27,347 nt of DNA from a virus, in the IMG/VR virus record IMGVR_UViG_3300037584_000957, positions 1-27,347 of that record; one strand, written 5' to 3'. Below are positions 1 through 19,925 of the stretch, one piece after another. Below the pieces are notes generated by a model. It searched no databases. It saw only the letters and a program-made list of their open reading frames with translations, and had not been told where the DNA came from. How positions within the stretch are numbered: the first letter of the stretch is position 1; the number at the start of each line of letters is the position of its first letter. The position numbers and the translations under genes are program-made.

Positions 1-69
1 ACGTTTGCCCTGCTTCGTTACAACAATGACATTCACGAAGTAGAGGAAGATTCGGACGATGATCTGTGA
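1..69 (+). CDS. 3' end of an unidentified phage protein (partial)
   Basis: Reading frame 1 is open from the window edge to a TGA at 67-69 and gives the last 22 residues of a protein. The visible end is strongly acidic (EVEEDSDDDL). Its stop overlaps the GTG start of the next gene in a GTGA arrangement, typical of translationally coupled phage genes. Acidic C-terminal tails are common on phage replication proteins, and the downstream genes are replication genes, so a replication or recombination role is a reasonable guess. Too little is visible to name a family. Confidence 0.6.
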   Translation, partial: TFALLRYNNDIHEVEEDSDDDL

Positions 70-719
70 GAATCAGCATCCGTGGGGGTTACTTCTCTGG
101 GCCACCGGAGCTAGATGCATACTGCACACAAATGAGAGCAGTAATCGTCCATGCTTCTGGAGTTCACAGAAGTTACTTCGCTGGTGAATACCAACCAGAA
201 GGTAATCAGTTACCTGCATGTTGGTCAACGGATACTGAGAGACCAGCGTTACAAGTGCCAGCGGCTACTCGCCAATCTGGTAGGTGTATCGACTGCTCTC
301 AGAATATACGGGGGTCGGCAATAGGTGGTAACGGCAGAGCGTGTAGGTTCTTTCAGCTTTTAGCGATTGCTTTTGAGCATGATCTAAACACTGTACATAG
401 ACTGCAAGTTCCGTCAGCAAGCATCTTTGGCAAGAGCAACAGTAACATGTCGCTTGAAGCCTACTCGCGCTTTTTGGCTAGACACGGAACGCCAAGCGCA
501 ACGGTAGTAACAAAAATTTACTTTGATACTACAAGTAACATGCCTCGCTTGTGCTTTGCACCGTCGAGAGCATTGCGGACGGAAGAGTTAGACGTTGTGC
601 GTGAGGTCGTTACTCGGCCCAGCACCCTCAACACAATAACGTTTGAGGTTGTAGATCACACACAGTCACCTTTTCCGGTTAGTAAGGGTTTTGAAATTAA
701 GGAGACATATCATGGCTGA
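66..719 (+). CDS. Conserved phage protein with four-cysteine (putative zinc-binding) motif, function unknown
   Basis: A 217-aa protein starting at GTG 66, which overlaps the preceding stop by 4 nt. It carries Cys52, then Cys74-x2-Cys77, then Cys93, a spacing that could bind zinc, within the context ACWST...CIDC...GNGRACRFF. I recognise this arrangement from unnamed proteins of many tailed phages, where it often sits next to single-stranded DNA-binding proteins, but I know of no assigned function. The end overlaps the SSB start by 8 nt, so the two are probably translated together. A DNA-binding or replication-accessory role is inferred from context only. No signal peptide or membrane segment is seen. 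Confidence 0.7.
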   Translation: MRISIRGGYFSGPPELDAYCTQMRAVIVHASGVHRSYFAGEYQPEGNQLPACWSTDTERPALQVPAATRQSGRCIDCSQNIRGSAIGGNGRACRFFQLLAIAFEHDLNTVHRLQVPSASIFGKSNSNMSLEAYSRFLARHGTPSATVVTKIYFDTTSNMPRLCFAPSRALRTEELDVVREVVTRPSTLNTITFEVVDHTQSPFPVSKGFEIKETYHG

Positions 720-1437
720 AGCCAACTACATAATACCTAGCGCAGAAGCGCTATACCCAAAAATCGACCAGACTTATAAGTTTGACCAGACTGCAAACCG
801 CTCAGTTCCTTGTGATCCTTTTGATGACGGTGCAGCCTACGAGCTAAACTTTAAGTTGTCAGAGTCTGACGCTAAGAAGTTATACAAAGCGATGAAGGCT
901 TACTACCTTGAGAGAAAAGAAAAGAGCTGGCCTGACAAGTTCCCAAATCCTTTCAAGAAACAAGAAGACGGTACTTACGAAGGTAAGACCCGATTAAAAG
1001 GCGCTTTCGGCAAAGATGCCAGCCGTAAACCACTGTTAGTGGATTCTAAAAATACGCCATGCGGTGATGATTTCAGACTAACCAGCGGCAGTATTGTCAA
1101 TATATCTGTGACATTTGTTCCGTACAGTGTCTCAGGTAGCACTGGTGTTAGTTTGCGTATCAACGCCGTACAGGTGTTGAAGTACGAGCCAATGAAAGCT
1201 AGCAGTCCTTTTGCTGCTGTTTCTGATGGCTTTGTGGCTACGGAAGTCAGCCCGTTCTCTCCTGCCCCCGAAGAACCTGTTACCTCTACCGAGGATGATG
1301 ACGATGGTTTTGGGGACGAGGAAGATCTGCCCCCTGTGGCAGAACCGAAAAAGAAGGTCGTCAAAAAGTCTGCTCCTGCACCTACAGACGCTGGCGATCT
1401 AAGTTCGATCATTGATGCTTGGGATGACGAAGACTAG
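712..1437 (+). CDS. Single-stranded DNA-binding protein, T7 gp2.5 / DUF2815-like
   Basis: A 241-aa protein. I chose ATG 712 (MAEANYI) because AAGGAG at 699-704 lies 7 nt upstream; an in-frame start at 691 has no such site. The core (roughly residues 1-165) resembles phage DUF2815/gp2.5-type OB-fold SSBs, with a basic, lysine-rich stretch around residues 55-100 and the segment GSIVNISVTFVPY. The last 60 residues are low complexity and acidic (EDDDDGFGDEEDL), then a short Pro/Lys-rich linker, and the protein ends in DAWDDED. An acidic C-terminal tail is a hallmark of gp2.5-type SSBs and serves for docking replication partners. It would coat ssDNA made by the helicase encoded just downstream. 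Confidence 0.82.
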   Translation: MAEANYIIPSAEALYPKIDQTYKFDQTANRSVPCDPFDDGAAYELNFKLSESDAKKLYKAMKAYYLERKEKSWPDKFPNPFKKQEDGTYEGKTRLKGAFGKDASRKPLLVDSKNTPCGDDFRLTSGSIVNISVTFVPYSVSGSTGVSLRINAVQVLKYEPMKASSPFAAVSDGFVATEVSPFSPAPEEPVTSTEDDDDGFGDEEDLPPVAEPKKKVVKKSAPAPTDAGDLSSIIDAWDDED

Positions 1438-1541
1438 GTTTTAATGGTCACTTCACCACGGCTAGGTATGTGGTAAGCCGAAAAGAGTGGCACATCTGCC
1501 TGTCACTTCTGCCGTGGTGTCTTTTCTTTTTAGGTGCATAA
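1438..1541 (+). promoter_or_regulatory. Structured leader between SSB and primase with mutually exclusive hairpins
   Basis: This 104-nt spacer holds no ORF. A long-range stem pairs 1454-1462 (CACCACGGC) with 1511-1519 (GCCGTGGTG), 9 perfect base pairs, followed by a T-rich run. The same 5' arm can instead form local hairpins: 1455-1459 with 1470-1474 (ACCAC/GTGGT) or 1459-1463 with 1476-1480 (CGGCT/AGCCG). The outcomes exclude one another, which is the layout of an attenuator or a structured RNA. AGGTG at about 1533-1537 is the likely ribosome binding site of the primase at 1542. No energy calculation was made, so regulation is inferred. Confidence 0.45.
1454..1531 (+). terminator. Possible rho-independent terminator after the SSB gene
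   Basis: A 9-bp GC-rich stem (1454-1462 with 1511-1519) is followed at once by TCTTTTCTTTTT. The loop of 48 nt is unusually long for an intrinsic terminator, although it can fold further. It could partly stop transcription so that the abundant SSB is made in excess of the primase-helicase downstream. It might equally be an RNA processing site or a structural RNA. Confidence 0.45.
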
Positions 1542-4382
1542 ATGGATACAAAATTATTTTTGAGGAGTCTGCTGCCCCCCGAAGGAATTTACGTTTTATT
1601 GCGGATCAACCCGCAAACAGGAAACCTTGAGCAAACGTCTTACACGGACATAGACGATTTAGAACGTGCTGCTGTAGAAGCAGACAGGGCAGGGTTGGAC
1701 GTATATTTTGCGTTGAGTTCTTTCGGTAAGGAAAACTCTCGTAAGGCAGTAGACGCCAAGTACATACAAAGTTTCTTTCTGGATTTAGATTGTGGGGCCG
1801 ACAAACCACACGCAACACAGGTAGACGTAATTCAAGAACTGCAAAGTTTCTGTGCAGCAACTAAATTACCAAAACCACTTATAGTTAGCTCTGGTAGGGG
1901 CGTGCACGTCTATTGGATGCTGCGCGAGGCAGTCAGCGTTGTTGATTGGAAGCCCGTAGCGCAAAGACTAAAGAACCTATGTGCAGAGCAGGGGTTTGAA
2001 ATAGACACCAGTGTTCCCGCAGATGCGGCTAGGGTGTTACGTGTTTTAGGTACGCACAACTATAAGCCAAACCCACCCGCCCCAGTGCAGCTTCTAAGCA
2101 GTGTTCCCAAAGCTGTAGATTTCGATTGGTTTTCGGAGGCCATCGGTGGGCCGGTGATAACAGTTCCCACAAAGCATGAAGAGGGGAGCGCAGGGGCTTT
2201 TGCTGAGTTCTTACTAAAATCTAGTGAGTTCAGCTTCAAAGACATTCTAGTTAAAACAAATAACGGTAATGGCTGTGCGCAACTTGGTTTGATAGTAGCT
2301 AACCAAGAAGTTACTACAGAGCCAATGTGGAGAGCAGGGCTATCTATTACAAAGTTCTGTCGTGATGGTGACAAGGCAGCACACATGCTGTCTGCAAAGC
2401 ACCCTGAGTACGTCCCACACCTAACAGAGACTAAAAAGGATCTGGTAAAAGGGCCATACAGGTGTACAACGTTTGACGAAAATAATCCAAACGTCTGCAC
2501 GGACTGCCCTCACTGGGGCAAAATAAAGTCCCCAATAGTGCTTGGACGTAGGTTCAAAGCATCTGAAGATTGTGCCGATAGTGAAAACGCTGCGGAACCA
2601 TTAGATGAATTTACGGAGTCCCCGGAGTACGCACTAGTAGATGATACGTCAGAACATGTTATACCCGCATACCCGCGCCCATACTTTCGTGGAGCTAGCG
2701 GTGGGGTGTTTGTTAGAAGCACCAATGCAGACGGTGAGACAGATGAACGGGTAATCTACCAAAACGACATCTACGTAACACGGCGTTTGCATGATGTTGA
2801 AACCGGCGAAATGGTTGTAGTGCGGTTACACTTACCTAAAGATGGAGTGAGGGAGTTCACACTACCGCTAACAGCACTTACATCTAGAGAAGAATTTAGG
2901 AAGAATATGGCAGCGATGGGCGTTGCCGTTTTGAAACAGGACGACTTGCAGCAGTATATGACTACATGGGTTAACGAGTTACAGGCAAAGTCTGTAGCAG
3001 ATACAGCACACCGGCAGTACGGATGGTCAACAGATGAATGCCGTAGCTTTGTGGTTGGTGACAAAGAGATACATCCTAATAAGATTTCTTATAACCCACC
3101 TACCGTACCTACAATGCAGTCATACCCATTCTTCAAAACGAAAGGAACGCTAGAGGGTTGGCAGGAGATGGCTAACTTCTACCTATCAAGAGAAGGTATG
3201 GAGATGCATCAGTATATCGTGTGCACTGCTTTTGGTTCTCCGCTCATGCAGTTTCTACCGCAGAACTGCGCCACTATGCACGTACATGATAAGGCTGGCG
3301 GTGCAGGGAAAACAGCGGCTATGAAAGTGGCCGCAGCAGCGTGGGGGCATTTCAAGGGGATAGTGGTGGATGATAATGACACTACCTCTTTCAAGATGAA
3401 TCGTGGAGAGGTGTTACACAACCTACCTTTCTATATTGATGAGGTTACAAATACACCCGAGAAGGAGATGAGTGGTCTTGCGTATCAATTAACCAGCGGG
3501 CAGCAGCGCGGGCGTATGAGTAATGGCTCAAACATAGAACGCACAAGAGGCGAACCTTGGAAACTATTGTGCTGCACTACAGGCAACATGAGTGCAATTG
3601 AGAAAATATCGTTGTTCAAAGCTGGGCCGAAAGCAGAAGCACAGAGGATACTAGAGCATCGCGCTAGGCAGATCTTTTCAAAGTCAAAGGACAAAGAACT
3701 TACCGACAACTTTGAAAGAAGCATAGAAGAACACTATGGGCACGCAGGCCCGATCTTTATACAGCACGTAATGAATCACATAGATCATTACAAAGGACAG
3801 CTCCGTATTGTGCAACAAACTATAGACCGCCGTGCTGGGCTGGCTCCAGAAAACAGGTTTTGGTCGGCAGGGGCAGCGTGCGCTATAACTGGTGGCATGA
3901 TCGCTCAGAAGTTGGGGTTGGTGGACTACGATATGGAAGTCATTACCAAATGGGTTGTGGGGCTACTAAAAGAAAACAAGAAGAGCGTAAGTGAAATGGG
4001 GGCATCAGTAGAGCAAGTCTTAAATGACTACATCATGGAGCACTACGGTAACGTGTTATGGATAAAAAGCACTGATGACTTACGAAAACAAAATGAGACT
4101 AACATACTTGCAAACGGGTTAGATTCCCTTGTGGTGCCTGACGCTGTACCAAAAGTTAAGTTTGTTGCAAGGTACGAGACAGACATAAAACGTATGTACT
4201 TGTTACCTAAACCACTAAAAGAATGGTGTGGTAAACAGCAGATAAACTATGCGGGGTTTGTAGAAGACCTCATTGAGAAGCTGAAAGGCAAGCGCACTAA
4301 GATGCGTTTGAGTAAAGGCACGCAAATGAGACTGCCACCTACAAACGTGATCGTAGTGAATTTTTCAATAGATGGCGAGTAG
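1542..4382 (+). CDS. Primase-helicase: AEP primase fused to a DUF927-like helicase
   Basis: A 946-aa bifunctional replication enzyme that makes primers and unwinds the fork. The N-terminus is an archaeo-eukaryotic-type primase: FLDLDCG with catalytic Asp81 and Asp83, SGRGVHVYW (His122), and the third motif DAARVLRVLGTHNYK (residues 161-175). A zinc-type cluster follows, Cys308-x10-Cys319-x2-Cys322, with CPHWGK typical of phage primase-helicases. The C-terminal half resembles DUF927/SF3-like ATPases: Walker A GGAGKT at 586-591, Walker B YIDE with Asp633-Glu634, and a probable sensor TTGN near residue 680. All key residues are present, so it should be active. It starts at ATG 1542 with AGGTG upstream, and its TAG overlaps the next GTG by one base. 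The exact polarity and partner of the helicase cannot be told from sequence. Confidence 0.92.
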   Translation: MDTKLFLRSLLPPEGIYVLLRINPQTGNLEQTSYTDIDDLERAAVEADRAGLDVYFALSSFGKENSRKAVDAKYIQSFFLDLDCGADKPHATQVDVIQELQSFCAATKLPKPLIVSSGRGVHVYWMLREAVSVVDWKPVAQRLKNLCAEQGFEIDTSVPADAARVLRVLGTHNYKPNPPAPVQLLSSVPKAVDFDWFSEAIGGPVITVPTKHEEGSAGAFAEFLLKSSEFSFKDILVKTNNGNGCAQLGLIVANQEVTTEPMWRAGLSITKFCRDGDKAAHMLSAKHPEYVPHLTETKKDLVKGPYRCTTFDENNPNVCTDCPHWGKIKSPIVLGRRFKASEDCADSENAAEPLDEFTESPEYALVDDTSEHVIPAYPRPYFRGASGGVFVRSTNADGETDERVIYQNDIYVTRRLHDVETGEMVVVRLHLPKDGVREFTLPLTALTSREEFRKNMAAMGVAVLKQDDLQQYMTTWVNELQAKSVADTAHRQYGWSTDECRSFVVGDKEIHPNKISYNPPTVPTMQSYPFFKTKGTLEGWQEMANFYLSREGMEMHQYIVCTAFGSPLMQFLPQNCATMHVHDKAGGAGKTAAMKVAAAAWGHFKGIVVDDNDTTSFKMNRGEVLHNLPFYIDEVTNTPEKEMSGLAYQLTSGQQRGRMSNGSNIERTRGEPWKLLCCTTGNMSAIEKISLFKAGPKAEAQRILEHRARQIFSKSKDKELTDNFERSIEEHYGHAGPIFIQHVMNHIDHYKGQLRIVQQTIDRRAGLAPENRFWSAGAACAITGGMIAQKLGLVDYDMEVITKWVVGLLKENKKSVSEMGASVEQVLNDYIMEHYGNVLWIKSTDDLRKQNETNILANGLDSLVVPDAVPKVKFVARYETDIKRMYLLPKPLKEWCGKQQINYAGFVEDLIEKLKGKRTKMRLSKGTQMRLPPTNVIVVNFSIDGE

Positions 4383-4603
4383 TGGGCGTACTCAGAACTG
4401 ATGATATAAACCCTGATGGAATACGTATCGTAATTGATTGGCCCAGCATGGTTATCAGCAGTTCAGTGTTCGTGCCTTGCATAAACACTCACTTGGCAAA
4501 ACAACAAATACTGAAAATAGTTACTGGTTTTGGCTGGGAATGTACGGTAAAAGTTGTTACCGAAAGTGACAAATTAGGTGTTCGCGTTTGGAGAACCATG
4601 TGA
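4382..4603 (+). CDS. Small protein of unknown function downstream of the primase-helicase
   Basis: A 73-aa protein starting at GTG 4382, which shares its first base with the primase stop (TAGTG); that coupling is the main evidence that it is real. The sequence is a mix of short hydrophobic strands (IRIVIDWPSMVISSSVFVPC) and a C-terminal basic stretch, consistent with a small alpha/beta fold. There is no transmembrane segment, signal peptide or metal motif. I do not recognise the family. It is the last rightward gene before the strands converge, and its position suggests a role tied to replication. Confidence 0.6.
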   Translation: MGVLRTDDINPDGIRIVIDWPSMVISSSVFVPCINTHLAKQQILKIVTGFGWECTVKVVTESDKLGVRVWRTM

Positions 4604-4657
4604 TAACATGCCGCTTCATAGGGTGTAGTCTCCAACAAAATCCTATATCTCCCACAA

Positions 4658-4696
4658 CCCCTCTACCTTGGCCTCCCTTACACCTTGGTAGGGGGG
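4658..4696. terminator. Hairpin between convergent operons, possible bidirectional terminator
   Basis: CCCCTCTACC at 4658-4667 pairs with GGTAGGGGGG at 4687-4696: 10 bp including one G-T pair, with a 19-nt loop. It lies in the 98-nt gap between the end of the + strand replication genes (4603) and the stop of the - strand late operon (4702), where both transcripts need to end. There is no clean T-run on either side, so it is not a textbook intrinsic terminator. The loop also carries a direct repeat of ACCTTGG. Confidence 0.4.
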
Positions 4697-4701
4697 TATC
4701 C

Positions 4702-7700
4702 CTAAAAGAACCCTACGTCATCTACTAGATCTTGTGCGCCTTTAGATAATGTAACGCCGTTGTACATCTTGGCCTTGGTCGTGCGTTTATGGCTTTCTAG
4801 AGACCGTTCTATTGTTTTACTATCTATACGCAGTTTAGGGTTTATTCTGACAGCATCGCTGGCGTTAAACTCATTCATCTTCCTACGTAGTCTTCTCTTT
4901 TCGTCAAACTCGCCGAATCTGGTAGCAACATAGTAGCTATTTAATAGTCGGCCTCTTTCTCGCGTGGCCGCAGTCTCTATGTTTTTTACTGCCCGCTTTT
5001 CTGCTTCGCTTCTCGTATATTCGGCTGGTGGGAACCCTAGTATCTTTACTGCCAACTCTCCTGCTGACATGTCATCGTATATGTAGTCGCCGCGTCTGTT
5101 ACGTATCCCTCCCTCCATAGGGTAACGAATTGCACCCTGATACACGTTACGTACTGCTCCGGGCAATAGGTCTTCAAATCCACGCACAAGATCTCTGCCG
5201 GTCTCTGCTTTTACCATTTTCTCAGCGCCTCCAATCGCTCTGGACAAAACGCTCCATGCAGGGCCACCCACATAATGCATGAATGTTTCTGCGGGTGATG
5301 GGTCAGATGCAAACCTGTTTGCTTCAACAAGCAAGTCGGTCAACTTGATACGCTCAGATACATCAATGCCAAGGAGTTCTGTTGGTATTCCTCTGTATAT
5401 AGCCTCGTTGTTTAGTGAGCTACGTACAAAAGTATCGAAATCCTCTTCGTAATCGTCCGTAAATCCGTCGTATAACGCCGAAACTGCTCCGTACAGTGGC
5501 AATCCTTGCACCCCAGCCAACAACAATGCGGATAAATGCACCCCTGCAAGCTGTTTGAACGCTTCTGATTTAGCTGTTTTTACGAGCGCGTCTATCGCAC
5601 TCTTTGCCATACCTTTTGATTCAAGATCTTTTCTGTAGCTGTCGGCGTATACTTTAACAGCCTCATAACCTGTTTTACCCATTGCGTAGTACATTTGAAT
5701 GCCGTAGTTCTTGTACATCAGAGCCACGCGCATCACGCCCTCTCGCGCAAGTCGAGGGCCAGTTTCTAGGGTAGCGCCACCATTTATTAACTGAGTTTCA
5801 TGTAACGCTTTATCTGCTGCTTCTTTTCTTTGCTCTGCCGTCGCTTTGCTTGGATCACCGTTTGTAAGTTTATCTAGTTCTAGCTTATAAGCCGTTACCA
5901 TAGTTACTTGCCGGTTCATCAATTCTGCTTGATGAAACATAAGTGCAGAGGCGTTTGTCATAGCGTCATAACGACTCATCTTACGTCCAGCACCATCTAT
6001 ACTCAGTGTATCTGCGAGGAATGACGAGTTTAAGTGTCCTCGTCTAGAAGCCAGTTGGATCAGCGGTGCTAACTCTTCTAACTCAGTAATTTTATCTTTG
6101 GGCAGTTCTAAATCTTCTCTTACGGAAAAGAGTAAGTCCCCGCTGTTTGGATCTCTGGTAAACGTATAGTAGTTATCCAAGCTCTTGAGAGACATATCTT
6201 GCAGTGTTCCGTATAACCCGTCCTCTGCAAGTTTTTGTTTTATGCTGTCCGGGGTTCTTATATCACCATATAAAGTGCGGCTTGCCTTATTCATAGGCGC
6301 ACCTTGAAACAGCAACGTAGAATTTTTTACTGCGTTAGTGGCTTGTTTGGCCCCGTACTTACCGCTCAACATGGGTAACGCAAATAACGGTATTTGAGAT
6401 AAGTTCACGAGTGCCGAAGATGCGTTAAATCCTATCGTGTATATAAACGCTAGACGGTTAAGGTGTTTAGGATAGCCTTCCACGGTGGGTTGTATCGCAA
6501 ACTGTGCACGGCTTCTAAGCTCTTCGATTAGCTGTGCGTCCCTAGCACTGTCTCTACCCAGCCCCTGTGCTTCAACTTGCTCCAGCATCTGATCTAGTTC
6601 ACGCGATATAGCGTTGCTGTTCTTGATGCGTTCTGTCTGTCGCGCTAAGTCAAAGGCTTTTGTTCTGGCTGCGTCTACTGCATCCATGTCGTAGCCTTCA
6701 GTGTTCTTACGTTTGATTAACGCTTTTGCAAAAGAAGATTCTGGTAGCTCTTCAATGAACAACCTAGTTATTTGTTCTTTTATTGTGGGGTCTACGTTCT
6801 TGTCTGTTAGATCTAGTATCTTCAATACATCAGAAACGAATGACCCCGGCGGTGGGTTTCTATAAGAAGACGACTTACTATTATCCCAAGAATCAACCTC
6901 AAAGCCTTGCTTCTCGTAAGACTCCATAGCGGCAAGTCGTTCCCCCGGCGTGTTAAAAGCAAATACCGCCGCGTTAGATTTATCACCTTCCTTTTGCCGC
7001 ACGGCTAACCAATAGCTGCCACTACGAGTAAGTGGGAAGTATGGCTCCTTACCTGTGTTTTCTAGCAGTTTAGCCAGCAGTTCGTTTTTAAGGTTAGTTC
7101 TTGTGGTCTCTCCTACAGGTAGATCGTCAAGACGCCCCCGCAAAGAATCTATCAGCGCGTTGTACTGATCTCTGTAGAATCCACGCAGCTCTTCATAGGC
7201 TCTTCTTCCGTCTGGCCCCATTTCTGCACTTTGAAATAATGTACGTAACTCGTTATATTTATCTACCTTACGTTGCGAAGTTCCTTCTACCGTTTGATCG
7301 CCGTATTTCTTCTTGGCTTCAGCAGGTGTTAAGTTGGGGTCTACCTCGTTTATAGTGCTTTCATAAACAAGGTTATTGAAGGTCTTCATTGTTTCTTGTG
7401 ATGCTTTACTGGCCCACCGGAATACAGGCTCTAACGTCTGTCTAGTAACCTGTTCTGCCTCCGTTAAACGCCCACGCTGCGTTTCTATGGCATCTAGTAT
7501 TCTTTTTGCGTTGGGTATGCTACGAGCTTCAGCGATGTCTTGTATTGATCCGTTTGGCAGGAACCCAAATATCTTAGTAAGGTACTTCTTAGTTCCTACT
7601 TGCGGGTCTGTCAGGAGGGCGTTTATCTCTTTCGATAGCTTCTTTCTTGCAGTCGCTCTACCCTCGGCTGTTCTAAACCCAGCTTTTTGACCCTTTATCT

Positions 7701-13774: not shown

Positions 13775-14466
13775 GCTGGTAGCATCCTCATGGGGTCTAC
13801 TTCTTTACCCTGTTTTTCGTTACCTGTACGTTCTTTGCGTACTCGACTCATCATCTCGTGTAAAACTCTTGCTCCTGCATCTGAGTTGCCATTACCTAAA
13901 TGACTCACTACGTCCGCAGGGATAACAAACTCACCGTCACTTAATCTTGCTTCTTGCCCATTATCAATTCGTGCAGGGACTTTATCAGCCATACCGTCAG
14001 TAGAGCCGTCTAAATATCTACCTTTACTAAGAGCTAAAATGCCACCTGCTGCCATACCCGTACCACCTTGCAAAGCTGCTATACCTTCTGCTTGTTCTTT
14101 GGCTTTAGCACGGGCTTCTGCAATCGACATTGGAGTGGTTTCTGGCTGCTTTGCGTAGATAGTGTCGCTAAAATAACGACGACCTGCAGAGCCGGGGCGA
14201 CGGTTTGGGTCAATACCGTCTTCAGGTATGGGCTGTCTTTCTGGCATAGCGACTCGTTCTCGTACAGCCGCATATCGTGGTATTTCGCCTTGATAGCCAG
14301 TAGATTGCATTTGGGGGTTGAAGAAGTCTGGAGCAAACTTGTTACCTAAAGCAGATATACCAAGCCCAGCAAGTATAGAACCGGCGTCACTACTAAGAAA
14401 ATCTGAAAAGCTAGCGTCTTCTTTACCTGCAAACTTATCTACTAGATCGCTAAAAAATGTGCTCAT
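13771..14466 (-). CDS. Conserved marine-phage structural protein, 231 aa (DGEFVIPADVVSHLG type)
   Basis: ATG 14466 overlaps the stop of the 1819-aa gene by one base. Residues 25-42 are weakly hydrophobic. TGYQG is at 56-60, matching residues 24-28 of the next protein. MAAGGI is at 138-143. The C-terminal third contains DGSTDGMADKVPARIDNGQEA, then LSDGEFVIPADVVSHLGNGNSDAG (177-198) and a basic helix ending the protein. I know this C-terminal block as a well conserved part of virion-associated proteins in marine podovirus-like genomes, where it also stands among internal-core genes. Its function has not been established to my knowledge. Confidence 0.68.
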   Translation of the reverse strand: MSTFFSDLVDKFAGKEDASFSDFLSSDAGSILAGLGISALGNKFAPDFFNPQMQSTGYQGEIPRYAAVRERVAMPERQPIPEDGIDPNRRPGSAGRRYFSDTIYAKQPETTPMSIAEARAKAKEQAEGIAALQGGTGMAAGGILALSKGRYLDGSTDGMADKVPARIDNGQEARLSDGEFVIPADVVSHLGNGNSDAGARVLHEMMSRVRKERTGNEKQGKEVDPMRMLPA

Positions 14467-17400
14467 TAATCTTTCCCAAGTAAACGCAATAATTCTTCAT
14501 TGCTGTTTATAATACCGCCTTGTGCTCTACGCCTTGGAGGTTGCGCAAACGGATTAGTTGCAGCATACCCTCCGTATGGCCCCGCCGCAGCGCGTTCCTG
14601 TTGTGGGGTACCAAAAATACTGCTGAAATCATAAGCTGGTTCTAGTTGCGCAAGCGGCGACTGCCCTACATCTATTTTACCTTCTTCAGAAGCTAAGAGC
14701 ATACTCAAAAAATCCCTTGCAGACGACTCCTTTGCACGTTGTTCGGCTTGCTGCTCCATTTGCATTTGTTGCTGCATTTGTTGCTGCATTTGTTGCTCTA
14801 ACTGTTGTTGCAATTCCTGTTGTTGCTGTAGCTGTGAAGCAAATAAACCTGTAGCAGCAAAGCGATTATCGGCAAGGGGATCTAGTGTTTGGTCACCTGC
14901 CAGCACATCCTGCAACAAGTTAAGATCCGTAGCATCAATTACACCATCGCCCGTGACATCATAAGCTAGCTGTTCTTCGGTAAACGTAAACGTAGACGGG
15001 TCAGCTAGTGCTTCCTGTTGTGCAATTACATCTGTAACAAAATCAATATCTGCGGCTGTTACATCTTGAGCAGGCTTACCTAATACTGTGGCTATAGCAT
15101 CTATGTTGCCGCTAAGTTCTGCCTCTGTTTCGCCCAGTGCCGCAAGCAGGTCATCTTCTGTCTGACCTATGGTGTCGAGAAGCTCGTCTTTTGTTATGCC
15201 TAACTGATCGGCGAGATCGTCTACAGCATTTTTTGTTTCATCTATTTCCGCGTATAACCCTGTCGCGGCTGCATCATCAGTAGCGGCGGTGCCTACACGG
15301 TCAGATAAATCTCCAAGATCGACGCCTAAACCTTCTAATTTTGCAAATAGCCCAGTTGCTTCAACGTCATCGCTAGAAGGACTGCCTATGGCGTCTACTA
15401 AAGCAGCGTTAGATACCCCTAAATCAGCTATATCTGCAAATATACCTGTTGCTGCTTCGGTTTCAGTAGCAGGGTTACCTATAACAGACTCTAAATTAGC
15501 TACCCCCGCATCTACTGCAGCGCCTATTACATTGTTTAGAGCGGTCTGTAAGTCCGTGCCGCTATCTAGTTGTGCGGCTAGTTCTGATGCTACCGCTTCA
15601 GCAACTTCATTAACGTCTACGGTTTCCGTTATGTTGGTAACGTAGGTATTGCTGACGTTATAGGTGTTACTAATGTTCGTTACATTAGTGGTTGTGCCCG
15701 TGTCATCTGTGGTGGTTGTCCCCCCGTCATCCGTAGTAGTTGTAGTAGTTGTAGTCGTGTCCGTAGATGGTTCTTCTCCCATATCTGGCTCAGTTGCAGG
15801 CAAACCTCCTACATCTGTATCTGTGTCTGTATCTGTATCTGTATCTGTATCTGTATCTGTATCTGTATCTGTATCTGTGCCTGCATCTGCGCCTATTAGG
15901 GGGAACAGCTCTGGGCTATTAGCGATTACCTCTGTTAAGCGGTCAGCAGAAAAGTTAAGCCCCCTCCATGTGTACGAGCCGTCAGCATTACGAGTTATGC
16001 CCTCATATACCGTGGATAAGTCAACATCAGCACCAGCATCCACACCAACATCTACACCAGCATCTACACCAGCATCCACACCAACATCTACACCAGCATC
16101 TACACCAGCATCTACACCAGCATCTACACCAACATCTACACCAGCATCTACACCAGCATCTACAGCATCATCAGCGCCAGTATCAGTACCAGCATCTACA
16201 GCATCATCAGCACCAGCATCCACACCAGCATCCACACCAGCATCCACACCAGCATCTACACCAGCATCCACACCAGCATCCACACCAGCATCCACACCAG
16301 CATCTACACCAGCGTCTACACCAGCGTCTACGGTTTCGTCGGTATCCGCCGCTTGTTCAGCAAGCTGCAATAGGTACTCAGCATTAAAATCTACTGCACT
16401 TTGTTTGACGGTAGACTCTGGCAACGTGCCATCTTCACCTACTTCGCCAAGCACTTCTTCTATAGTTTGTCCGGTTATCAATCCTTCTGGGTAGCCTGCA
16501 TCTATCAGTAACTGGCGTGCTTCTTCGGGGGTGGTGTATAGCTCATCAAAACTATCTTGTATATTTTCAAGGACTTTATCTGCATCTACAGTAGTTTGTT
16601 TTACATACTGTTGTGCTTGTTCTTCGGTTAACGTAAGTCCTTCTGCTGCCGCAGCGTTCATAACCTCTTGTGCGTCTACAAACCGGCTGTCTATGTATTC
16701 AGCTACCTGCGTGCCTAGTTCAGCATCGGGTTTGTTGCCTACGTATTCGTCTATAACTTTGTCAGACGCATTAAACTCAGGGTTAGCTGTCTCAAACGCT
16801 TGTTTGACTTCAGATGCGGTTGTGTAGTCTGCATCAAATGCGTCGTTTAATAAGCTAGTTTGCACCCCACCGAAGCCATCACTGGTTATGCCAAACTCGG
16901 CAAGCCTAGCCTCTGCTTCTGCGGCGTCTATTAAACCTGCTTTTGCGTCCGCAATCGTTTTCTGCACCTGTGCAGAGGTAGTTTTTGCTACGTTAGCAAC
17001 TACATCAGATATTTCTGCACCGGCTGTAAGTCCCCCGCCTACGTTTGTGCCGATTATACTGGCGAGTATGGCGCTTTCTGCTACGTTAGCCGCTATAGGT
17101 CTGTCAGGATCAATTTCACGTATTGATATATCCGTAACATATTGCACCGCGCCTTCTTCTAGACCCTCAAGTACACCTTCTCGCACCGCCCCGCTAGCAG
17201 TTCGGTCTATCCTAGAAAGGAACTCGTCCATTGCGCTTATGGTAGTTTTATTTACTTTAGGCCCAAACAGAGATTCTGCTAGCTGTTTACCGCCCAACAC
17301 TTCGGATGCAGTAAGCGCCATAACAGCACCCATGGCTCCTGATTTCTGTGCTACACCTGTAGCAAACTCTGCGGCCTCTAATAAATCTGCATCGCTAAGT

Positions 17401-19925
17401 TCTTGTGCTGGCAGTCCTGTTGCTTCTGCTATACGTGCATACTCTTCTTGACGTTTTCTTATAAACGTAGCGTGTGCATCTTCATACGCCCCGCCAGCCG
17501 AACCACCCGCTGCTTCTGCTACGTCACTTAGTAACGTGGCATCCATAGCAATCTTAGATGCGTCCATGTTATCGGCTATTTTCTTAGCCGCATCATCTCC
17601 AAACTTTTTAAGTGCTGCAGAAGACAGTTTTGCTCCCGCAAATGCTGCCCCACCCACAGCAAACGGCACGATCTCCTGCACAAATTCTTTGGCTACATAG
17701 TCAACGAGAAACTCTGTAGGGTTATCTACAGCCGCACCAAATATGGCTTTTCCTACTTCAAAGAAGCTGTCTTGCCAATCTGCATCTTTTGGTAAGTTGT
17801 CTTTAGCGGCTTGTATGCGGTCACTAATGTCTTTTAGGCCAGCTTGATAGTCCTCTGGCTTACTATCTCCAGCCATCTTAGATATTGCATCTAGGGTCTT
17901 AGCAATTTCGGTATTGCTTGGGTCATACCCAACTAGCGTTGCTAGCCCTAAAAACGACTGCGCTATCTCTGCACCTGCTTCTAACGCAACAGCAGTGCCA
18001 ACAATCCATTTATCATCCCCAGTTTCGGAGGAAGCCTCTACTGCGTCTTTTGCTATCTGATACAAGAAAGACGCTTCTGTTGGGTCTTCTCCTGCGGCTA
18101 CTTTTTCACGTATTACCGCGTTTTCATGCTCTCTACCTACAGATGCACTGCTTTTACCTAGCGCGTCTATATACGCTGCTTGGTCGGTTCCTGCTCTTAG
18201 CTCTTGTAACTTGGTTAAATCAGATTCTTGCACCTTCCGTGAAAAGTCTTCACTAGGATCATAGCCTAGCTCTTCCATAATCCTAAGATGTGAGTAGCCA
18301 TCGTTTTGTAGATCGTTGTAGATCTCTACAGCTTCATCAAAGAATGTAGCTAAATCATTGCCTGTAGGTGAAGATACACCTTCTTCTTGAGCTATCTGTT
18401 GTGCGAGTAAGAAACAACCTTCTATAACATCGCCACTTTCACCAATTACATCACTAAGTGCACCGTTACCAATAAGTGTCGCTGCGGTTGACAGCATTCC
18501 TTCAGCACTGGTGGGATCGACACCCAACCCAGCTATTTTAGCGGTTATTTTCAACCAATCAGGCATGATGTCGCCTAGTGTTTGACCACTTACGGTTACC
18601 ATCCCTGTTGTTTGAGAGGGTAAAGGTATTAACTCTACCGCCCCTGCTGCAATGCCTGCCGTAGCCGCTGCGGTAAGTATTTGAGATAAGTCCTTACCCT
18701 GTAGTGCAGCTATACCCCCTGATACGATTGCTTTTGCGGCAGCAGTACCAGCAAGAGTTGTTCCTCCAGCGGCGGCAGTAGCAGTAGACCCAGACAAAAG
18801 CGACGACATAGGCCCAGCTAAAGCACCGGCGGTTAGGTATCCAAGCCCCGCAAGAGCAATAGCTTTTAAGCCGTTTTGTACACTCTTATCTTTTACCTCT
18901 ACAGTTCTAATCGCACCCGTAGAGAACGGGTCAAACAAGTATGTAGAGCCATCATCAGTCTGCCGATATGGGTTAACGCCGTATTTGAAGTACAACGACT
19001 GCAACATCGGGTCGCGTGTATGTGCTTCTTCTAAGGCTTTCTGATAGTTCATCCCCTCCGTTGCCATAAGATATGGCACTTGCTCCGAAAGTATCGGACG
19101 AACTAAAGACTGAAAAGCTTCAATATCCGATGCAGAGCTAGCAGAGTGTTTTTTGTAAGAGTCTTTGAACCCGTTAGCGGCTAGATCAACTTCTACAGGT
19201 GATATTTCATAGCCGTAATAACTACTCAACGCACTGGCTAATTCTTCCGTAGTAGTTGCGTCGGCTATGGTTGCGTAGGCTTCTATTACAGATTGCTCAT
19301 CAGCACTACTACGCAGCCTTGATAGATACTCAGGGGCACCTTCCACAGTGGACAAATACAATTCTGGAGTTAGCCCCCCAGAAAATAACCCTGCAAACGC
19401 ACCTGATTCTCGCCCACCCTCGCCGCCAATTATGTCAGCATAGGGGTCAAAACCAACAGCTCCAAAGGCTTGCTTAAACCCAAGGTTGTAGTAGTCGTCA
19501 GTCTCGTCTATGTCACCTTCGTAAGTAACGCCTTTGGATAGTATATTTTTGTATTTCTGTACTGCCTTATTAAGCAAACCTTCCACGGCTATAGCGGGGT
19601 TAGCAGGTGGGGGCGTAGTTGCAGGGGTAGTCGTAGTTGTCGTTGCTTCGTCTTCTATTCGTTCTATAGCAGCCAAAATATCTGCTTTAGACGGCTCACT
19701 TTCTGCAAAAGAAGGCAACTCTGGTTCTGGTTCTGGTTCTGGCTTGGGCTTGGGCTTAGGCTTGGGCTTGGGCTTGGGCTTGGGCTTGGGCTTGGGCTTG
19801 GGCTTGGGCTTGGGCTTGGGCTTAGGCTTAGGTGTAGGGTATTGTTCTTCTAGCCGCTCTATAGCCGCTAAAATGTCCTCTTCTGATGGTTCAAAAGCAA
19901 AGTTAGGTGGATTAAACCGACGCAT
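14466..19925 (-). CDS. Giant repeat-rich virion protein, 1819 aa, with PK, VDAG and TD tracts and a dockerin-like EF-hand
   Basis: ATG 19925 overlaps the previous stop (TAATG) with GGAGG about 7 nt upstream. In order: a SxxDILAAIER motif (~14-24) repeated after a rigid (PK)15(PE)4 rod (32-69); a helical N-domain with a hydrophobic stretch (~360-415); a module resembling one in the 2064-aa protein (~820-970); about 26 VDAG-type units (1199-1302); a TD tract (1349-1371); a Thr/Asp stretch and an Asn/Val/Thr strand region (~1386-1435); three exact 31-aa repeats (1482-1574); a calcium-loop DVTGDGVIDATD (1656-1667); a Gln/Met-rich helix (~1697-1730); and RAQGGI near the C-terminus. The position among internal virion genes suggests an ejected or structural core protein. 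No enzyme motif is seen. Confidence 0.75.
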   Translation of the reverse strand: MRRFNPPNFAFEPSEEDILAAIERLEEQYPTPKPKPKPKPKPKPKPKPKPKPKPKPKPKPKPEPEPEPELPSFAESEPSKADILAAIERIEDEATTTTTTPATTPPPANPAIAVEGLLNKAVQKYKNILSKGVTYEGDIDETDDYYNLGFKQAFGAVGFDPYADIIGGEGGRESGAFAGLFSGGLTPELYLSTVEGAPEYLSRLRSSADEQSVIEAYATIADATTTEELASALSSYYGYEISPVEVDLAANGFKDSYKKHSASSASDIEAFQSLVRPILSEQVPYLMATEGMNYQKALEEAHTRDPMLQSLYFKYGVNPYRQTDDGSTYLFDPFSTGAIRTVEVKDKSVQNGLKAIALAGLGYLTAGALAGPMSSLLSGSTATAAAGGTTLAGTAAAKAIVSGGIAALQGKDLSQILTAAATAGIAAGAVELIPLPSQTTGMVTVSGQTLGDIMPDWLKITAKIAGLGVDPTSAEGMLSTAATLIGNGALSDVIGESGDVIEGCFLLAQQIAQEEGVSSPTGNDLATFFDEAVEIYNDLQNDGYSHLRIMEELGYDPSEDFSRKVQESDLTKLQELRAGTDQAAYIDALGKSSASVGREHENAVIREKVAAGEDPTEASFLYQIAKDAVEASSETGDDKWIVGTAVALEAGAEIAQSFLGLATLVGYDPSNTEIAKTLDAISKMAGDSKPEDYQAGLKDISDRIQAAKDNLPKDADWQDSFFEVGKAIFGAAVDNPTEFLVDYVAKEFVQEIVPFAVGGAAFAGAKLSSAALKKFGDDAAKKIADNMDASKIAMDATLLSDVAEAAGGSAGGAYEDAHATFIRKRQEEYARIAEATGLPAQELSDADLLEAAEFATGVAQKSGAMGAVMALTASEVLGGKQLAESLFGPKVNKTTISAMDEFLSRIDRTASGAVREGVLEGLEEGAVQYVTDISIREIDPDRPIAANVAESAILASIIGTNVGGGLTAGAEISDVVANVAKTTSAQVQKTIADAKAGLIDAAEAEARLAEFGITSDGFGGVQTSLLNDAFDADYTTASEVKQAFETANPEFNASDKVIDEYVGNKPDAELGTQVAEYIDSRFVDAQEVMNAAAAEGLTLTEEQAQQYVKQTTVDADKVLENIQDSFDELYTTPEEARQLLIDAGYPEGLITGQTIEEVLGEVGEDGTLPESTVKQSAVDFNAEYLLQLAEQAADTDETVDAGVDAGVDAGVDAGVDAGVDAGVDAGVDAGVDAGVDAGADDAVDAGTDTGADDAVDAGVDAGVDVGVDAGVDAGVDAGVDVGVDAGVDAGVDVGVDAGADVDLSTVYEGITRNADGSYTWRGLNFSADRLTEVIANSPELFPLIGADAGTDTDTDTDTDTDTDTDTDTDTDVGGLPATEPDMGEEPSTDTTTTTTTTTDDGGTTTTDDTGTTTNVTNISNTYNVSNTYVTNITETVDVNEVAEAVASELAAQLDSGTDLQTALNNVIGAAVDAGVANLESVIGNPATETEAATGIFADIADLGVSNAALVDAIGSPSSDDVEATGLFAKLEGLGVDLGDLSDRVGTAATDDAAATGLYAEIDETKNAVDDLADQLGITKDELLDTIGQTEDDLLAALGETEAELSGNIDAIATVLGKPAQDVTAADIDFVTDVIAQQEALADPSTFTFTEEQLAYDVTGDGVIDATDLNLLQDVLAGDQTLDPLADNRFAATGLFASQLQQQQELQQQLEQQMQQQMQQQMQMEQQAEQRAKESSARDFLSMLLASEEGKIDVGQSPLAQLEPAYDFSSIFGTPQQERAAAGPYGGYAATNPFAQPPRRRAQGGIINSNEELLRLLGKD
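14735..14838 (-). repeat. Gln/Met-rich coding repeat (QQMQQQMQ tract)
   Basis: An imperfect short tandem repeat of Gln and Met codons covering about residues 1697-1730 of the 1819-aa protein; on the + strand it reads as TTGTTGCTGCAT-like units. It probably forms a long polar helix or coiled coil. Low complexity makes it prone to replication slippage in multiples of three, which would keep the frame. Confidence 0.7.
14925..14960 (-). other. Dockerin/EF-hand-like calcium loop in the 1819-aa protein
   Basis: Residues 1656-1667 read DVTGDGVIDATD: acidic or Thr ligands at loop positions 1, 3, 5, 9 and 12 and Gly at 6. That fits a calcium-binding loop of the dockerin type, with Asp rather than Glu at position 12. 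Only one loop is present, whereas true dockerins carry two, so it may be a stand-alone calcium site that stabilises the virion protein. Confidence 0.6.
15204..15482 (-). repeat. Three tandem 31-residue repeats in the 1819-aa protein
   Basis: Three copies of exactly 31 codons (93 bp) begin at 15482, 15389 and 15296. The first two open with IGNP/IGSP and the third with VGTA. Shared positions include (E/D)ATG(I/L)(F/Y)A in the middle of all three, LGV in the first two, and Leu plus Asp near each end. They diverge in sequence while keeping exact length, so they are structural repeats rather than recent slippage products. Part of the motif (ATGLFA) recurs once more downstream, just after the calcium loop. 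Confidence 0.8.
15813..15880 (-). repeat. Thr-Asp dipeptide tract (hexanucleotide GTATCT repeat)
   Basis: About eleven near-perfect copies of a 6-bp unit (GTATCT on the + strand, with GTGTCT variants) encode alternating Thr and Asp. High DNA identity among units suggests recent expansion by slippage. The unit length is a multiple of three, so copy-number changes alter protein length without breaking the frame. Confidence 0.9.
16021..16331 (-). repeat. VDAG tetrapeptide array (12-bp minisatellite, about 26 units)
   Basis: A 12-bp unit (CCAGCATCTACA on the + strand, with C/T and A/G variants) is repeated about 26 times and encodes Val-Asp-Ala-Gly. Variants give VDVG, ADDA and TDTG units, and some variants recur in blocks (VDAG-VDAG-VDVG), implying expansion of multi-unit segments. 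It adds roughly one negative charge every four residues. It is not a CRISPR array: there are no unique spacers. Confidence 0.92.
19741..19832 (-). repeat. (Pro-Lys)15 tract (hexanucleotide GGGCTT repeat)
   Basis: Fifteen Lys codons alternate with Pro in a 6-bp repeat (GGGCTT on the + strand, with a few GGCTTA variants), followed by four Pro-Glu pairs towards 19721. Alternating Pro makes an extended, stiff, cationic rod, much like the EP/KP region with which TonB spans the periplasm. The likeness is compositional and does not imply homology. Confidence 0.92.

Follow-up and report, generated by a model that had tools for sequence, protein, structure and literature searches.

The gap between the genes for a single-stranded DNA-binding protein (SSB) and a DUF927 primase in a marine phage holds, at 1454-1537, what we read as a divergent int-alpA RNA in the primase leader that probably controls primase translation. 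Positions are those of the window, by which we mean the whole stretch of 27,347 nt that was analysed. This gap measures 104 nt (1438-1541), most other genes of the phage abut or overlap, and no DNA similarity was found between the gap region and named phages. The RNA is arranged as P1-UA-P2-GAAAA-P3-CU-P1', where P1 is the long stem closing a three-way junction and the tail behind it ends at the primase Shine-Dalgarno sequence (Table 1). The int-alpA-type RNA ends 22 nt 5' of the primase start codon. Among the cultured CRP-8xx phages, an SSB about 50% identical to that of the window is followed by a primase/helicase gene, and a tblastn comparison of the CRP-8xx primases with the window primase gave no match. 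The gap of Roseobacter phage CRP-821 (L502:4612-4683) has a minus-strand hairpin with a U-run and no int-alpA junction. Elsewhere in the window, a minus-strand gene block around 14466-19925 includes an ORF of 1819 aa (14466-19925) with N-terminal Pro-Lys repeats (PKPKPKPK...) as well as an ORF of 2064 aa.

Table 1. Parts of the predicted RNA and its flanking genes, in window coordinates.
Feature	Position	Strand	Evidence
SSB gene, upstream: single-stranded DNA-binding protein, Enc34 type	712-1437	+	PF10991, E 7.9e-9
P1 5' arm CACCACGGC	1454-1462	+	pair probability about 1.0; covariation over 60 sequences
Junction linker UA (CUAG motif)	1463-1464	+	alignments A5 and A6 show CTA then G throughout
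P2 5' arm GGU	1465-1467	+	first two pairs formed in 100% of cells
P2 3' arm GCC	1477-1479	+	third pair U-G in the window, U-A in L003 and L032
Junction linker GAAAA	1480-1484	+	near-invariant GAARA in the primase clade; also in the Rfam int-alpA model
P3 5' arm GAGUG	1485-1489	+	two-sided changes in 5/5 pairs; 96% of cells paired
P3 loop, putative antisense segment	1490-1503	+	covaries with the 3' tail in relatives
P3 3' arm CACUU	1504-1508	+	covariation set of 60 sequences
Junction linker CU	1509-1510	+	kept in the primase clade and int-alpA
P1 3' arm GCCGUGGUG	1511-1519	+	pair probability about 1.0; covariation
U-rich tail UCUUUUCUUUUU, possible terminator tail	1520-1531	+	L002-L005; shorter in L032; absent from most of the clade
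Primase Shine-Dalgarno AGGUG	1532-1536	+	sequence; 5 nt 5' of the ATG at 1542
Primase gene, downstream: DUF927 primase/helicase, 946 aa	1542-4382	+	PF06048, E 1.8e-24

Searched with Rfam, positions 1455-1534 matched int-alpA RNA (RF02996) at 36.8 bits versus a cut-off of 35.8, and no other Rfam family matched the window region at E <= 1. The same model scores L003 at 40.3 bits, and the more distant primase-leader relatives that were searched in this way fall below the int-alpA cut-off. The earlier note, which had proposed an attenuator before the primase gene, allowed for a small phage RNA as another option; this option came close, the RNA being in addition conserved, structured and above the int-alpA cut-off. 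A covariance model built from 13 primase-leader RNAs recovered 62 leaders of the 63 loci tried. In the reciprocal test this model, made from primase leaders only, picked out int-alpA copies at unrelated loci of bacteria and viruses, with E values of 1e-7 to 1e-3 (L501, 1.7e-7; L490, 7e-7; L167, 3.8e-6; L179, L208 and others). These reciprocal matches argue that the window RNA is a divergent int-alpA member and not a chance match 1 bit above the threshold.

The window RNA shares with int-alpA the junction layout, the UA, GAAAA and CU linkers and a start codon shortly downstream. In contrast to int-alpA, its P1 letters are GGCUAG/CUGCC instead of GCCUAG/CUGGC, the pairing between its P3 loop and tail is weak, and a second hairpin carrying the Shine-Dalgarno sequence is lacking. 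It also differs in place, being flanked by SSB and the DUF927 primase in a phage replication operon and not located after an integrase, between integrase and alpA. Among bacterial copies, however, the upstream gene is an integrase in only 16 of 44 cases (others include RadC, toxin-antitoxin genes and regulators), so that genomic context is not a strict criterion for int-alpA.

Relatives of the primase leader were collected by using the primase protein as query against viral contigs. Because these loci were picked by protein and not by RNA, the SSB-primase gap could be read without bias towards an RNA. Across 60 distinct sequences, 95.8% of P1 cells were paired, with two-sided changes in eight of the nine pairs; P2 was paired in 100% of cells, and P3 in 96%, with two-sided changes in all five pairs. 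Two-sided cells numbered 221, versus 68 (sd 8) in shuffles. For the whole structure, none of 500 shuffles matched the percentage paired, the two-sided cells and the covariation score, and pairing fell from 86% to 35-50% when the partners were slid by 1-3 columns. A smaller alignment also shows compensatory changes in the junction. The perfect complementarity between 1454-1462 (CACCACGGC) and 1511-1519 (GCCGTGGTG) that the earlier note had described is present, and compensatory change in this long stem, chosen beforehand as the test, was found clade-wide. On this comparative evidence the stem is judged to be real far beyond chance, and the alignments show a conserved three-way junction that occupies the same place in over 60 related phage contigs and has been retained by compensatory change. 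Folding energy alone is unremarkable (z = -1.5 for the gap; 14 of 200 shuffles fold equally well), so that the case for the RNA rests on comparison; inside P1 the single-sequence minimum-energy fold reaches -26.2, versus -19.4 for the junction with its short P3. The three-way junction is supported by covariation and not by energy.

Outside the primase clade, the viral and bacterial sets were fetched with core-motif patterns. The first loose viral pattern scans yielded mostly chance matches, and only loci that passed a structure filter were used; this filter gave 174 matches versus 2 in a shuffled control, a ratio that is inflated because many loci had been preselected by the core-motif pattern. 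Tests of pairing between loop and tail are unaffected by this preselection, since loop and tail are absent from the pattern. The scan of bacterial genomes returned 51 loci, nearly all with the same structure, and four bacterial genomes checked with Rfam had int-alpA matches at 57-73 bits. Matches occurred in 14 of 143 sampled genomes of one class, and about 200 of 5,426 complete E. coli genomes had a sequence closely related to one of the int-alpA copies. The bacterial RNA commonly begins about 12-20 nt 3' of the stop of a same-strand gene, and at most loci a start codon lies 33-45 nt 3' of the matched core. The proteins encoded downstream are mutually dissimilar and nearly all unclassified, the 44 bacterial downstream ORFs containing one Pfam family (DUF6387, two members) and one unnamed PHROG family (two members). 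Defence cargo at this position was considered and rejected, as the same 44 ORFs gave no PADLOC family. The E. coli locus runs from an integrase through the RNA to a hypothetical gene, an HTH regulator and an antirepressor, with a TOPRIM-DUF927 protein further on, and looks like a phage satellite. At several viral loci (L298, L304, L320, L321, L331, L370 and similar ones), the coding sequences that come after near-identical int-alpA RNAs and leaders differ, as though genes had been exchanged precisely behind the RNA. One further viral locus possibly has two RNAs about 1.1 kb apart (L445:1631-1703, E 8e-6; L445:2782-2825, E 0.01).

The P3 loop of these int-alpA copies has a complement immediately 3' of P1 and, in many cases, a second one at the Shine-Dalgarno sequence, the region of which can lie in a small hairpin. 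For example, the loop CCTTCA of L197 meets TGAAGG twice downstream, the loop TTCATCAC of L387 has the sites GTGATG and TGATGAA, and the loop GCCGTC of L490 has GACGGT and GACGGC. Loops were re-dealt among loci for comparison: the bacterial set gave 5.12 observed versus 3.93 (sd 0.13), unrelated viral loci gave 5.87 versus 4.00 (sd 0.14) at site 1 and 4.93 versus 3.81 (sd 0.13) at site 2, and a small independent set drawn with the Rfam model after the idea had been formed (n = 7) gave 1/2000 at site 1 and 34/2000 at site 2, these shuffles being somewhat generous owing to shared ancestry and covering many distinct loop and site sequences. The tests show that the P3 loop, taken over the wider family, covaries with two sites, the one immediately 3' of P1 and another at the Shine-Dalgarno sequence of the next gene. 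This loop-tail pairing is absent from the Rfam alignment shown and may already be drawn in the original description of int-alpA, which is reportedly that of Weinberg in 2017.

In about two thirds of the primase leaders, loop and tail pair in a pseudoknot directly 5' of the primase Shine-Dalgarno sequence, with the independent replacements TGCCGA/TCGGCA, ACCGA/TCGGT, GTGCCG/CGGCAC, TGTGTC/GACACA (L258, L264) and AAAATTTA/TAAATTTT (L008). Taken over all primase leaders, the excess of loop-tail pairing amounts to only 2.5 sd, and no such pairing was found in the primase relatives L232, L239, L248, L254, L282 and L285. A subclade comprising L232, L239, L248, L254, L228, L274, L281 and L293 has a conserved tail CUCUCGGAAUUAGG that is unmatched by the P3 loop and can pair with the junction CCGA instead. 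Complementarity of the loop to the Shine-Dalgarno sequences of diverse next genes is a statistical property of int-alpA copies, and the window alone offers weak matches of 4 bp (GCAC/GUGC or CCUG/UAGG, loop versus 1531-1537). As for a distant target of the window loop, the complement within the RNA itself aside, the sole 8-nt match lies at 3666 in the primase gene and was judged to be chance.

In the mechanism that we propose, the P3 loop would act in antisense and so control whether ribosomes reach the next gene; it could do this in cis by forming a pseudoknot, in trans as part of a released RNA, or in both ways. Primase synthesis in this phage would be held down or timed relative to SSB, and in the closest relatives only, the U-run after P1 may in addition set free a short RNA or reduce read-through. 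From the fixed place of the element and the family's Shine-Dalgarno-linked covariation we strongly infer that it acts on the primase leader, and a role in setting the SSB:primase output is plausible.

If P1 and the U-rich 1520-1531 formed an intrinsic terminator or attenuator, part of the transcripts would end after SSB and primase mRNA would be lowered, an explanation that we consider unlikely. The T-rich run directly 3' of the long stem pointed out in the earlier note (TCTTTTCTTTTT, 1520-1531) does exist, and at 1511-1531 the window has the stable stem followed by a U-run that defines intrinsic terminators, namely a GC-rich 9-bp stem, paired with a probability of about 1.0, and then UCUUUUCUUUUU; this arrangement is not conserved in the clade. 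Canonical terminators occupy this gap in some distant relatives (L034, GCCGCC-TTCG-GGCGG-TTTTTT, and L031). However, the U-run is missing in most relatives with the junction, where the tail reads UCUYUCGG and averages 4.5 U of 12, and a stem that closes a junction is not a compact terminator hairpin. A terminator scan of 1-6000 did not list the 1511-1531 element, the scan permitting loops of 3-8 only. Moreover, no antiterminator helix is conserved, and simple termination would have no need of the GAAAA, UA and CU motifs. Intrinsic attenuators have the GC-rich stem and U-rich run in common with the window lineage but differ from the window RNA, for which neither an antiterminator nor a leader peptide nor a ligand domain is conserved, and whose U-run is not conserved either. 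Termination limited to the window lineage is possible, and attenuation would be a local addition at most, because the alternative helices have a probability of about zero and are broken in relatives, and the U-run is confined to the closest relatives.

Relatives without the junction (L226, L230, L234, L246, L251, L261, L286, L290 and L291) fill this place with unrelated long hairpins of about 10-14 bp that usually lack a U-run, and the SSB-primase gap is always strongly structured in some way. The presence of such simple hairpins means that position alone is no proof of antisense control. The strong hairpins of L286, L290, L291, L246 and L226, mostly lacking a U-run, look as if any strong structure in the gap serves, which would suit an intercistronic stability or processing element that protects the 3' end of the cleaved SSB message and keeps SSB above primase with no switch; SSB is required in larger amounts than primase. 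We nevertheless hold this explanation to be quite improbable, since a mere barrier needs neither conserved junction letters nor a loop covarying with downstream sites.

A true two-state attenuator, as the earlier note had envisaged, is almost certainly not what operates here: the local complementarities 1455-1459/1470-1474 (ACCAC/GTGGT) and 1459-1463/1476-1480 (CGGCT/AGCCG) are present and would form first during transcription, but at every window size folded both have a pair probability of about 0.0 versus about 1.0 for the long stem, and both are broken in L003 and L032, the primases of which are 95-96% identical to that of the window (1476-1480 reads AACCG or CACTG in L003/L032, and 1470-1474 is GTGGC versus ATCAC in L003). 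The supposed mutual exclusivity and the terminator/antiterminator logic therefore fell on the pair probabilities and the loss in close relatives; no antiterminator counterpart exists elsewhere in the primase clade, and the U-run is missing in most relatives.

For the preferred reading, translational control by an int-alpA RNA, several known systems offer a comparison. In IncI/IncB repZ leaders, a loop pairs just before the start of the replication gene, beside a Shine-Dalgarno hairpin; this pseudoknot is of unrelated sequence, and control is exerted by a separate antisense RNA I. C4 RNA (RF01695; phages P1 and P7) and the CI RNA of P4 are similar in having an outer stem that closes two hairpins with the antisense loop in the second, and, as regards the wider int-alpA family, a single loop whose complement occurs at two leader sites close by. 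Both differ from the window RNA in junction letters and helix lengths, and membership in C4 was rejected because the C4 model gave no match in the window at 1300-1700 (E <= 1). As a positive control, Rfam C4 found the P4 CI RNA at 74.9 bits (L503:8420-8507), and in the seqA region upstream of it isrK and c4-a1b1 overlap. CI differs further in acting via transcription termination, with seqA upstream. The P4 CI element restrains replication-gene expression, and the resemblance to C4 and CI is one of working principle (PMC4825925, PMC10111431).

On a broader and more tentative reading, int-alpA RNAs may be widespread C4/CI-like antisense control RNAs in which one hypervariable loop reads two leader sites including the Shine-Dalgarno sequence, the window RNA representing a branch recruited for a replication primase. 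If this is true, the loop of each element would give its own expression or immunity specificity in phages and phage satellites. For int-alpA, an orphan family for which we found no function described, the loop covarying with two leader sites is the first functional clue found. The present data extend the family into a marine phage replication operon and, if the interpretation is right, predict the base pairs on which expression or immunity specificity would depend in many phage satellites.
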